Translations under genes and position numbers: made by a program | DNA from: Nitrososphaerota archaeon | GTDB taxonomy: Archaea; Thermoproteota; Nitrososphaeria; Nitrososphaerales; Gagatemarchaeaceae | DNA: 47,789 nucleotides | Assembly: GCA_027886975.1 (NCBI GenBank) | Contig: JAPCJK010000004.1 | Span: 1-47,789 of the forward strand | Reading direction: 5' to 3' | Shown: one piece after another, positions 15,690 to 20,456 of the stretch | Numbering within the stretch: position 1 is the stretch's first letter | How the letters are laid out: each line of letters starts with the position of its first letter | The notes under the pieces: model-generated | Told to the model about the DNA's origin: nothing | The model's database searches: none | Seen by the model: the letters and a program-made list of their open reading frames with translations, nothing else

Positions 15690-16778
15690 CTATCTCGTCG
15701 TTTCTGCGGCTTTGACCGATTCGTATAGTTTCTTTGCGGAGGGGTCTTTTTCGAAATGTTCACGGATGGGCGCGATGATCTCGTCCATCGCCTCGCCCAC
15801 CCCCCGTTTCAGGTCAGCGGGGTGAAGGTGCCCGGCTCGGTAAGCGCTCTCGAGCTCACCGGCCGATTGAAATTCGATTGTACCGCCATACTTCTCGGAC
15901 CGCACAACCTTCAGAGATTGCCTTTTCCGGAAAATGATGTACTTCGAATATTCGATGAGGACGTTCCCTTCCAGTATCTTGGGAGGGCAGTAGGCGGAGT
16001 CAATCTTCTTCATGATCACGTCACTGTTGTCATGGACGAAGATCGAAGTCTCCGGCTTGCTCTTACTCATCTTGCTGGCTATCTCTTCGTCCAACTTTCC
16101 ATTTTCGTCGTAGCCCTCTGGGTCTTTCCTCCCCTGAAGGCCGATGAGCATGTGGTGGTGGACCGCGACTGGCTTCTTCCACTTCATTTTTTCAGCGATC
16201 TCCCGGGCCAGAATGTTCGCCCTCCTCTGGTCAACGCCTAGTTGGCAGATGTCTACATCAAGCCAGAAGATGTCCGCGACCTGCATCATCGGGTAGAAGA
16301 GCTGGGCCGTCTGTACCGACTCCTTCGTCGTCCTCCCGGCGATGGTGAGCGCCCGCTGAGCCCTTGCGAGCGTGGAGTTCTGGGCGACCGTTATTACCTT
16401 CTTCCAGTATTCCTCATTCTTGGCGGCGTCGCTTGTCCAGAGAATCTCGACCTTGCTCATATCGACCCCGGCCGCCCGCCAGACCTCGATGAAGTACTTG
16501 CCGACTTCCCGGATCTTTTCTAGGTCCCCTCCCATCTTGTTGTTGACCCAGGCGAACCAGTCCGCGATCCATAGCTTCATCCTCACCCCTGCTTTGAGCA
16601 TGTCTTCCACGAGGATGGGCCGAAGCACTCCAAAGGGGAGGTGTGCGAGACCGCTCGGCTCAAAGCCGTCATAGGCCGATGGGTGCTCGTTGGTCTCCAG
16701 GAGGGTTCTTAGCTCCCTTTCGGTTATGATCTCTTCGCCCACGCTTTTGATGAGGTCGAGCCTAGTTTCGAAGTCCAA
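15690..16778 (-). CDS. tyrS: Tyrosyl-tRNA synthetase
   Basis: YDGFEPSGLAHLPFGVLR, IADWFAWVNNKMGGDLEKIR, YPMMQVADIFWLDVDICQLGVDQRR, KMSKSKP. Confidence 0.95.
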   Translation of the reverse strand: MDFETRLDLIKSVGEEIITERELRTLLETNEHPSAYDGFEPSGLAHLPFGVLRPILVEDMLKAGVRMKLWIADWFAWVNNKMGGDLEKIREVGKYFIEVWRAAGVDMSKVEILWTSDAAKNEEYWKKVITVAQNSTLARAQRALTIAGRTTKESVQTAQLFYPMMQVADIFWLDVDICQLGVDQRRANILAREIAEKMKWKKPVAVHHHMLIGLQGRKDPEGYDENGKLDEEIASKMSKSKPETSIFVHDNSDVIMKKIDSAYCPPKILEGNVLIEYSKYIIFRKRQSLKVVRSEKYGGTIEFQSAGELESAYRAGHLHPADLKRGVGEAMDEIIAPIREHFEKDPSAKKLYESVKAAETTR

Positions 16779-17697: not shown

Positions 17698-18930
17698 CTA
17701 GTCTTCAGAAGGCGGAAGGATTAGGCGCCCCATCGGCGCCCTGGGGGCCAGCTCCGCCAGGGGCGTTGTTTTGAGGACGTCTCCAACCGGGTTGTATGTC
17801 ACAAGGGTTGCCCTTTCGAGTGACTTCCATACCAGGTCTTGAAGCGCAAACCTTTCAACGTATTCGGCGATGATGCCGGCCTTCAACCTTGTTTTCGGGT
17901 GCCGCGTGATCATGGCGCAGCAGTCTTTGTACTCCTCAATGGACAGCTCATAGGTGCCGATGCTCTTCGCGAGGCCGACAATCTCCTCTTTGTCGTAAGT
18001 GAGCAGAGGCCGGAGGATGGGAAGAGATGAGCCGTCGTCGAAGGAAGCGATGTTCCAAAGGGTCTGTGACGCCGCCTGCGAGAGCGAGTCCCCGGTCGAG
18101 AGTGCTGAGGCACCGAAACGTGGCCCCAGAGCCTCGGCGGTCATTCGCATGAATCTGCGGAAGAGTGAGGGTTCAATGTCCGAGGGGACACCGGCCGTCG
18201 CCAATTGATACTCGGCGAATGAGAACAGGACAAGCGTGCTCTTGCCGCCGTATTCGGAGAGCACCTTGACGAGCTTCGTTATCTTGCTCTCCAATGCAGC
18301 CTTGAGGGAAGGTGCAAGATAGAAGTGGACGTAGACGGGCCTGCAACCCCGCTTCATCAGAAGCCATGCAGCCACCGGAGAGTCTATTCCCCCGGAGAAG
18401 AGAAGCATCACTCGTCCCGCCGTTCCGATGGGGAGGCCCCCCGGGCCCCTCTGCTTGTCGGTGTAAACGAGGGCCTTACCTTGTATCACGTCCACGTGTA
18501 TTGCCACGTCCGGATTCGAAAGGTCGACAGACTTCCCGGTGGCCTTTACCACCTCGGCTCCGAGTCTTGTCGCCAGCTCCTGGGACGTCAGGGGGAAGGA
18601 CTTGTCGGAGCGCCTGGGGTCAATCTTGAAGGAGCCACCTGAAGCCGAACTGGCGGTCCCGAGGACCGAAGAAAGAATTTCTTGGTAATTGGGTTCCACA
18701 CTGGACACTGGAGCGAGCCAAGACACACCGAACACCTTGGAGAGCCTGCGGGTCACTTCGGCCTCGTCCCCTTCTGCTTCTACCATGAACCTCCCGTCGA
18801 TCAACGCCGTTTTGTGATTAATCCCAACGAGTGACTTGTTGATGTTCCTCCTTAGCGCCTTCATGAACTCTGGTCTGTTGTTTCCCTTGAGCGCCACTTC
18901 GGAGTAGTGCACCACGAAATTGGCAGCCAT
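17698..18930 (-). CDS. thiI: ThiI tRNA 4-thiouridine synthase/sulfurtransferase family
   Basis: YSEVALKGNNRPEF, THUMP region, RGPGGLPIGTAGRVMLLFSGGIDSPVAAWLLMKRG. Confidence 0.95.
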   Translation of the reverse strand: MAANFVVHYSEVALKGNNRPEFMKALRRNINKSLVGINHKTALIDGRFMVEAEGDEAEVTRRLSKVFGVSWLAPVSSVEPNYQEILSSVLGTASSASGGSFKIDPRRSDKSFPLTSQELATRLGAEVVKATGKSVDLSNPDVAIHVDVIQGKALVYTDKQRGPGGLPIGTAGRVMLLFSGGIDSPVAAWLLMKRGCRPVYVHFYLAPSLKAALESKITKLVKVLSEYGGKSTLVLFSFAEYQLATAGVPSDIEPSLFRRFMRMTAEALGPRFGASALSTGDSLSQAASQTLWNIASFDDGSSLPILRPLLTYDKEEIVGLAKSIGTYELSIEEYKDCCAMITRHPKTRLKAGIIAEYVERFALQDLVWKSLERATLVTYNPVGDVLKTTPLAELAPRAPMGRLILPPSED

Positions 18931-19949: not shown

Positions 19950-20105
19950 CCCGCGGTAGCTCAGCCTGGTAGACCCAAAGGGGCCACAAGCTTCCGGCTG
20001 TAGAGGTCGGCCATCGGCTGACCCGTTCAGCCTACTCAGGCCACAGTCACCGGAGTGTCGTCGGCTCAAAGGCGCCCTAGGGCGCGGAGGTTCCGACCCG
20101 CGGGA
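19950..20105 (+). tRNA. tRNA-Tyr (anticodon GTA) with three predicted introns (19974-19989, 20004-20048, about 20071-20091)
   Basis: Acceptor CCCGCGG/CCGCGGG + A73; D-arm TA-GCTC-AGCCTGGTA-GA|GC; anticodon arm TCCGG-CTGTAG|A-CCGGA; T-arm GTCGG-CTCAAA|T-CCGAC; 74-nt mature molecule; C1-G72 typical of archaeal tRNA-Tyr. Confidence 0.82.
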
Positions 20106-20264
20106 CGGTTCAAATCAGGGTTATTCCTTGATTACGAGTCCGATATGACCTCTCTTTTTACATCGCGACTTGGCATGAAGCTGGACCAGACAGCCGAGGT
20201 AAGTGCTGAACTTCATCGCCCATGCCCCAAAGCATATGGAGAGGTCGGCGAGGACGACAATTCG

Positions 20265-20456
20265 ATGAAGCTTTGGGTTCCGGTTGCACTCGGAGGGCTT
20301 ATAGCAATCGCCTATGCTTTCTTTTATGAGCTTAGTTTGGCAGAGACCCAGGGGGCGGCCTCGTTTAGTCTTGCAAACTCCGTAGGTATCGTCGCTGTCT
20401 TTGTCGGCCTAATTGCTGCTGGGGTCATCCTCAGACGAGCTACCCCGCCGCAGTGA
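20265..20456 (+). CDS. Small two-TM membrane protein (start uncertain; could begin at 20145 or 20175)
   Basis: MKLWVPVALGGLIAIAYAFFYELSLAE...SVGIVAVFVGLIAAGVILRR; longer ORF would overlap the tRNA gene. Confidence 0.5.
   Translation: MKLWVPVALGGLIAIAYAFFYELSLAETQGAASFSLANSVGIVAVFVGLIAAGVILRRATPPQ

Follow-up and report, generated by a model that had tools for sequence, protein, structure and literature searches.

A three-intron tRNA-Tyr(GUA) gene of a Nitrososphaerota archaeon with a conserved intron that pairs with the D-loop and may form an H/ACA-like guide for U35

The window, the whole 47,789-nt stretch of DNA analysed here, comes from a metagenome-assembled genome (MAG) of the Nitrososphaerota (Thaumarchaeota). 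On the evidence of its sequence, one locus in it is a functional tRNA-Tyr(GUA) gene. It contains three introns (Table 1), of which the second is conserved across the phylum and almost certainly pairs with the D-loop of its own transcript in a helix of about 9 bp (P1). The explanation that best accounts for the data as a whole is probably that of a functional tRNA-Tyr with three bulge-helix-bulge (BHB) introns, the second of which would act as an H/ACA-like guide in cis. The more specific proposal that the precursor itself directs the formation of Psi35, with Cbf5 acting on U35 in cis before splicing, is held with less assurance, the balance tilting slightly in its favour.

Table 1. Coordinates of the tRNA-Tyr(GUA) gene, its exons and introns, and the elements of intron 2 and its pairing partners in the window.
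Feature	Position	Strand	Basis or remark
tRNA-Tyr(GUA) gene, three introns at 22/23, 37/38 and 59/60	19950-20105	+	
Exon 1 (nt 1-22: acceptor 5' strand, D-stem 5' strand, D-loop)	19950..19972	+	spliced cloverleaf; same exon in relatives
D-loop G15-G22 (GCCTGGTAG), P1 5' strand	19964..19972	+	covariation with intron 2
Intron 1, 16 nt, 22/23, BHB with UGGU x GCCA central helix	19973..19988	+	variable; absent in L047, L059
Exon 2 (nt 23-37), anticodon GTA 20000-20002 = G34-U35-A36	19989..20003	+	
nt 30-34 (GGCTG), putative P3 5' strand, partner of CAGCC in intron 2	19996..20000	+	unconstrained MFE folds; CAGC conservation
U35, proposed pseudouridylation target	20001..20001	+	pocket geometry
Intron 2, 45 nt, 37/38, conserved across the phylum	20004..20048	+	covariance models R1, R2
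Hairpin H1 (GGTCGGCC-ATC-GGCTGACC), putative upper stem	20005..20023	+	stem sequence varies, pairing kept
CAGCC, complementary to nt 30-34	20028..20032	+	
P1' (CTACTCAGGC, one bulged T at 20036), complementary to D-loop G15-G22	20032..20041	+	
ACA triplet, 15 nt downstream of the G34 partner	20043..20045	+	ACAG 20043-20046 is also the BHB strand of intron 2
Exon 3 (nt 38-59)	20049..20070	+	
Intron 3, 21 nt, 59/60, BHB with GCGCC/GGCGC stem	20071..20091	+	variable; absent in L047, L062, L064, L144
Exon 4 (nt 60-73): 3' T-stem, acceptor 3' strand, A73 discriminator	20092..20105	+	

Removal of the three introns left a 74-mer that folded into a perfect cloverleaf (-32.5 kcal/mol) with the GUA anticodon, C1-G72 and A73 of a tRNA-Tyr(GUA). 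It aligned end to end with the tRNA-Tyr of M. jannaschii. Both the gene sequence and the spliced 74-mer were identical to those of the original prediction, which had proposed a tRNA-Tyr(GUA) interrupted by three introns. The cloverleaf, the BHB contexts and the intron-less relatives agreed with this description; one of the introns is canonical and the other two are not. The expectation that standard callers would miss the gene also held, as ARAGORN and Rfam searches gave no tRNA at 19950-20105. There was no second GUA tRNA among the 33 matches of the tRNA family search of the genome, and the covariance models R1 and R2 (see below) each matched the genome once; another tRNA-Tyr, the existence of which had been raised as a possibility, was thus not detected by either approach. 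A pseudogene or assembly artefact would be one way to read a gene that escapes tRNA finders. The perfect cloverleaf speaks against it, and so do the lack of another detected tRNA-Tyr in the genome and the orthologues conserved upstream of ctaB, in divergent orientation, in most of the genomes sampled from the same genus. Because the locus is conserved, this reading is refuted, and we regard it as extremely improbable.

Genes named from their sequences as tyrosyl-tRNA synthetase (TyrRS) and a ThiI-like tRNA modification gene were located at 15690-16778 (-) and 17698-18930 (-), within about 4.5 kb of the tRNA-Tyr; TyrRS and ctaB stayed within about 10 kb in several genomes of the genus. The open reading frame previously noted over the 3' part of the tRNA was present at 20055-20456 (+), with a GTG start inside the tRNA. 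It encodes a small membrane protein, whose translation more probably begins at an in-frame ATG (MTSLFTSRLG...) shortly after position 20140. Intron-like insertions were also seen in other tRNA genes of this genome (L004, L013/L014, L026, L028, L029, L031, L032, L033), some at non-canonical sites, such as the D-loop of a tRNA-Asn; they are probably the reason why several isotypes were missing from the Rfam search of the genome.

The BHB cut was placed after the second bulge nucleotide at every junction (marked by a slash). Read from the sequence and the folds, each of the three junctions fitted the motif for which a check had been proposed, with two bulges of about 3 nt around a helix of about 4 bp. 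In intron 1, UGGU x GCCA was flanked by the bulges AG/A and CA/A, and the outer helix was weak. Intron 2 had a complete central helix, CUGU (32-35) x ACAG, with the bulges AG/A and UC/A; intron 3 had CUC(A) x (G)GAG with the bulges AA/G and GU/U and one A.G in the central helix. Introns 2 and 3 thus stayed where the original prediction had put them, but the BHB geometry moved intron 1 from 19974-19989 to 19973-19988, after G22, a one-base shift that leaves the mature RNA unchanged.

Relatives served as natural controls for introns 1 and 3. Within the same genus, L047 lacked both, L059 lacked intron 1, and L062 and L064 lacked intron 3; the sites of the missing introns were unbroken exon sequence (e.g., GGTAGAGCTTCCGG and GTCGGCTCAAATCCGAC), and the exons of the window rejoin as in these relatives and in L144. 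All four combinations of presence and absence of introns 1 and 3 were found among 68 distinct genes drawn from named and unnamed records. L144 shared introns 1 and 2 with L048 and differed from it essentially in lacking intron 3 exactly, so that this intron was gained or lost with precision. The apparent insertion in L122 was an assembly repeat containing an N. Introns 1 and 3 changed in sequence and length across the genus, whereas intron 2 was nearly constant and occurred in every orthologue seen in the genus, which leaves it with no intron-less control.

The C54 of the mature T-loop, remarked on earlier as unusual, was genuine. Relatives without introns 1 or 3 have C54 too, which rules it out as a by-product of intron placement. 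C54 (window 20065) went together with the 59/60 intron: most C54 genes (the window, L044-L064, L222, L241, L242, L266 and L213) had the intron, the few without it being relatives of carriers, and most T54 genes lacked it, in a comparison where the script misassigned two rows. With C54, the central helix in the BHB of intron 3 would be more stable. The 59/60 intron recurred with T54 in the tRNA-Tyr of other families (L203, L236, L254-L256, L275, L277).

Two different proteins with the PF01974 endonuclease domain (frames of 184 and 202 aa) were encoded in the genome. By inspection, one had the catalytic Tyr/His/Lys layout and the other was without the His. Such a pair, one subunit catalytic and the other not, suits an enzyme of the alpha2beta2 type, which bears on the architecture asked about at the outset; this type has been linked to non-canonical introns and assigned to Thaumarchaeota (review, PMC4090602). 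Multi-intron archaeal tRNAs are known (PMC8450103, PMC3218864), and the view that multiple non-canonical introns occur mainly in Thermoproteales and a few other archaea needs widening, since both non-canonical and multiple tRNA introns are known in Thaumarchaeota (PMC8450103). For this reason, a three-intron gene alone is of an already known kind. The gene described here resembles the multi-intron tRNAs of Thermoproteales and Thaumarchaeota in having BHB introns at both canonical and non-canonical sites, of which up to three per gene are reported, and in the alpha2beta2 endonuclease, but differs from them in an intron 2 that is conserved phylum-wide and pairs with the D-loop, a combination for which no report was found in the literature searched. 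The tRNA-Tyr of Thermofilum pendens likewise has a break at 59/60 and a canonical intron, but its halves are permuted (PMC3218864), whereas they are in order here. Apparently four introns (30/31, 37/38, 53/54 and 59/60) were seen in the tRNA-Tyr of L271 (1491-1683, +), L251 (minus strand, about 214-8), L249, L267 and L274. Hand-spliced L271 and L251 folded as cloverleafs (-32.2 and -34.2 kcal/mol, respectively); the highest number stated in the literature searched is three introns per tRNA gene (PMC8450103).

The conservation of intron 2 was followed with two covariance models. R1, a model of the intron built with a local hairpin GCCU/AGGC, was run on a phylum-wide sample of 398 genomes; it matched in 136 and gave exon-only matches for genes with a 13-nt intron. 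R2, a model of the D-loop and intron together, matched in 272 of the 398, a count above the true number of genomes with the element because the weakest matches may be exon only. R2 also detected the element in 13 of 14 additional genomes from the order. The exon/intron-2 pattern occurred in records named Nitrosotalea, Nitrosocaldus, Nitrosopumilales, Ca. Gagatemarchaeum and others, a few matches bearing bacterial record names, and cultured ammonia-oxidising archaea have the element. The stronger R1 matches kept CAGCCUA, then RGGC, then ACAG, while H1 was rewritten with its pairing kept: at least 5 pairs were present in 121 of 122 introns, and 77 different stems occurred among the 122. The hairpin H1 of intron 2 is thus shown by covariation. 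The local hairpin GCCU/AGGC was broken in L209, L210 and others where the D-loop pairing holds, and P1 was preferred to it. The tRNA-Trp intron was rejected as a neutral control of conservation; it is fairly conserved itself and possibly a box C/D guide, and introns 1 and 3 of the same gene were used instead for that reason. Intron 2 remains a canonical 37/38 intron, as first described, and the conserved element that pairs with the D-loop goes beyond that description.

P1' before the ACA, CTACTCAGGC in the window and CTACCAGGC elsewhere, complements the D-loop GCCTGGTAG of the same gene. Compensatory changes kept P1 in many families, both within the order of the window and in the wider phylum. 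The D-loop GCTTGGTAG was accompanied by the intron sequence CTACCAAGC in L209, L251, L254, L256, L272 and L278 and by CTATCAAGC in L253, L258, L271 and L280; GCCTGGAAG occurred with CTTCCAGGC, CTTCCAGGT or CTTCTAGGC (L213, L239, L204, L257), GCCTGGCAG with CTG(C/T)...AGGC (L078, L208, L216, L223, L225-L227), and GCTTGGCAG with CTGCCAAGC (L267) and CTGTCGAGC (L274). The wholly different D-loop of L210, GCTCAATGGT, was matched by the intron sequence GCCATTGAGC. All nine pairs formed between the D-loop GCCTGGCAG and its own intron in 10 of 10 cases, compared with 3 of 91 introns of the common D-loop; for GCCTGGAAG, the corresponding values were 4 of 6 and 2 of 91. Ten of the 11 AAGC introns had GCTT in the D-loop, and no GCTT gene was without AAGC; Fisher p-values for such associations overstate their independence because the events were not counted on a tree. 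In alignment A4, the rows of which were chosen for a 9-nt P1', P1 and P3 (nt 30-34 with CAGCC) paired in 221 of 221 cells, compared with 15-49% when slid. The variant D-loops of three genes (L212, L236, L260) matched the intron only partially. The tRNA-Tyr of L190, L265 (f22) and L280 (f14) carried an intron inside the D-loop near 15/16, and its removal restored a D-loop matching intron 2.

These data bear on the reading of the gene as an ordinary multi-intron tRNA, in which intron 2 would be conserved only through the constraint of splicing and BHB folding. Such tRNAs, and non-canonical introns of Thaumarchaeota, are known, as cited above, and ACAG does pair with CUGU in the BHB. However, the other two introns of the gene are freely variable within the genus, intron 2 follows D-loop changes that lie outside the BHB, and P1'-ACA persists where another strand makes the BHB. 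This reading was already disfavoured, and we consider it improbable.

The remainder of intron 2 was arranged around U35 in a manner resembling an H/ACA RNA. Immediately 5' of the D-loop complement, 107 of 129 introns had CAGC, which faces nt 31-34 beside U35. TAGC and CGGC occurred in its place and were still able to pair, the fifth pair was lost in introns with CAGCA (L074, L081, L140, L220), and L219 and L264 had lost the CAGC complement; CAGC:31-34 never covaries because nt 31-34 were invariant in the set. The distance from the G34 partner to the ACA was 15 nt in 79 of 97 introns, and archaeal H/ACA RNAs use an ACA ruler of 14-16 nt (PMC7991803). Among the 26 introns in which P1' ended at least 10 nt before the splice site, the ACA lay within a few nucleotides after P1' in 25, and its position cannot be attributed to the splice motif alone. 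The ACA of L210 and L234 was completed by exon A38 (AC/A across the 3' splice site). The features of an H/ACA RNA that were found are therefore a lower stem followed by an ACA at 14-16 nt and an upper stem, H1, above the pocket. A second (5') guide strand was not seen; the only guide strand is the 3' one (CAGC/CAGCC), and the target runs straight into H1. By inspection, the H1 stems of 122 introns contained no k-turn or k-loop for L7Ae, and an Rfam search of the locus gave no match to a known H/ACA family. Because the k-turn and the 5' guide strand are lacking and a TruD homologue is present, the element is described as H/ACA-like and not classed as H/ACA. For the box C/D signature (C box RUGAUGA, D box CUGA), CTGA was found inside H1 and no C box in intron 2, which ruled out a box C/D guide. 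A trans H/ACA guide with two guide strands was rejected as well, the 5' guide strand not fitting.

Of 93 precursors folded without constraints, 87 formed P1 and 73 formed P3; 59 combined the two helices with an unpaired U35. For the window without introns 1 and 3, the minimum free energy fold (-55.6 kcal/mol) contained P3, H1 and P1, and the best fold with the cloverleaf and the intron 2 BHB (-41.6 kcal/mol) was about 14 kcal/mol less stable; with all three introns retained, the precursor likewise formed the P3, H1 and P1 fold. In the ensemble for the window, P3 and H1 were near certain, and the exact register of P1 had a mean probability of 0.35, which is low owing to a possible slip of the helix by one. 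Neither the cloverleaf D-stem nor the BHB motifs of introns 1 and 2 can form alongside P1 and P3; P1 (nt 15-22) overlaps the intron 1 BHB (nt 17a-20), and the two cannot coexist.

This exclusion (of UGGU x GCCA in the case of intron 1), together with the preference for the alternative fold and the strong covariation of P1, would equally suit a helix that serves as a conformational check and not as a modification guide. The precursor would then be prevented from adopting the L-shape, which would delay charging, the action of elbow-recognising enzymes or splicing, or the helix would set the splicing order of introns 1 and 2. A check of this kind does not predict that CAGC faces nt 31-34 beside an unpaired U35, nor that the ACA stands at a fixed 14-16 nt where the BHB has no need of it, and we hold it to be unlikely, although the most credible of the alternatives. 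It is also conceivable that intron 2 acts in trans after its excision, pairing with mature tRNA-Tyr to guide modification. The complementary exon segments exist in the mature tRNA too, and the box C/D guide in the haloarchaeal tRNA-Trp intron acts in trans (PMC11408192). However, the fold of tRNA-Tyr is fully nested and strongly favoured in cis, and the ACA of L210 and L234 spans the 3' splice site and therefore exists only before splicing. Action in trans thus seems very improbable, marginally more so than an ordinary multi-intron tRNA.

Under the preferred reading of intron 2 as a cis guide, P1 would form the lower stem before splicing, nt 30-34 would pair with CAGCC, and H1 would be the upper stem. 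U35-A36 would lie unpaired in the pocket, with the ACA just after P1. Cbf5-Nop10-Gar1 could then recognise the precursor as a single molecule that is both H/ACA-like guide and substrate, and convert U35 to pseudouridine, after which the RNA would refold and the alpha2beta2 endonuclease would cut out the introns at their BHB motifs. Since P1 and P3 exclude the structures needed for the cloverleaf and for splicing of introns 1 and 2, modification and splicing would have to be ordered. Introns 1 and 3 would sit in a precursor that is already switching folds, for which we infer a fixed order of events. Nop10 was encoded in the genome. A TruD/Pus7 homologue, encoded in the genome of the window and in most relatives, could make Psi35 alone, which counts against the guide reading. 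Its presence also left the absence of TruD/Pus7 unsupported as a reason for the intron; six element-bearing genomes were without a TruD match (G028, G034, G036, G038, G039, G040), three of them less than 85% complete.

In yeast, Psi35 of tRNA-Tyr is made by Pus7. Modification there likewise depends on the intron, but the enzyme is protein-only, and we know of no D-loop pairing in yeast tRNA-Tyr. Psi35 of Sulfolobus pre-tRNA-Tyr is reported to be made by a trans-acting H/ACA sRNP (Muller et al., 2009, as cited in PMC7991803). The ACA ruler is common to both cases, whereas here guide and target would be one molecule, formed by the intron and D-loop of the gene itself, with neither k-turn nor 5' guide strand. 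The tRNA-Trp intron of Haloferax is comparable in that a tRNA intron serves the modification of its own tRNA, but it is a box C/D guide for 2'-O-methylation acting in trans (PMC11408192), whereas the present element is H/ACA-like, would direct pseudouridine formation and is proposed to act in cis. In the excerpted text of a 2024 review of intron-dependent modification, the box C/D case is the only intronic guide named. Our literature searches found no archaeal H/ACA element in a tRNA intron. To our knowledge, no H/ACA-type guide inside a tRNA intron has been described earlier.

If the cis-guide reading is correct, intron 2 would be the H/ACA counterpart of the tRNA-Trp box C/D intron, and its role would be the reason why it has been retained since before these families split. 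The same role would explain its persistence beside introns 1 and 3, which are gained and lost, giving a testable reason for the long retention of one archaeal tRNA intron among less stable neighbours in the same gene. The order of modification and splicing would then be a structural necessity and not a preference, and this may be tested in the cultured ammonia-oxidising archaea that carry the element.
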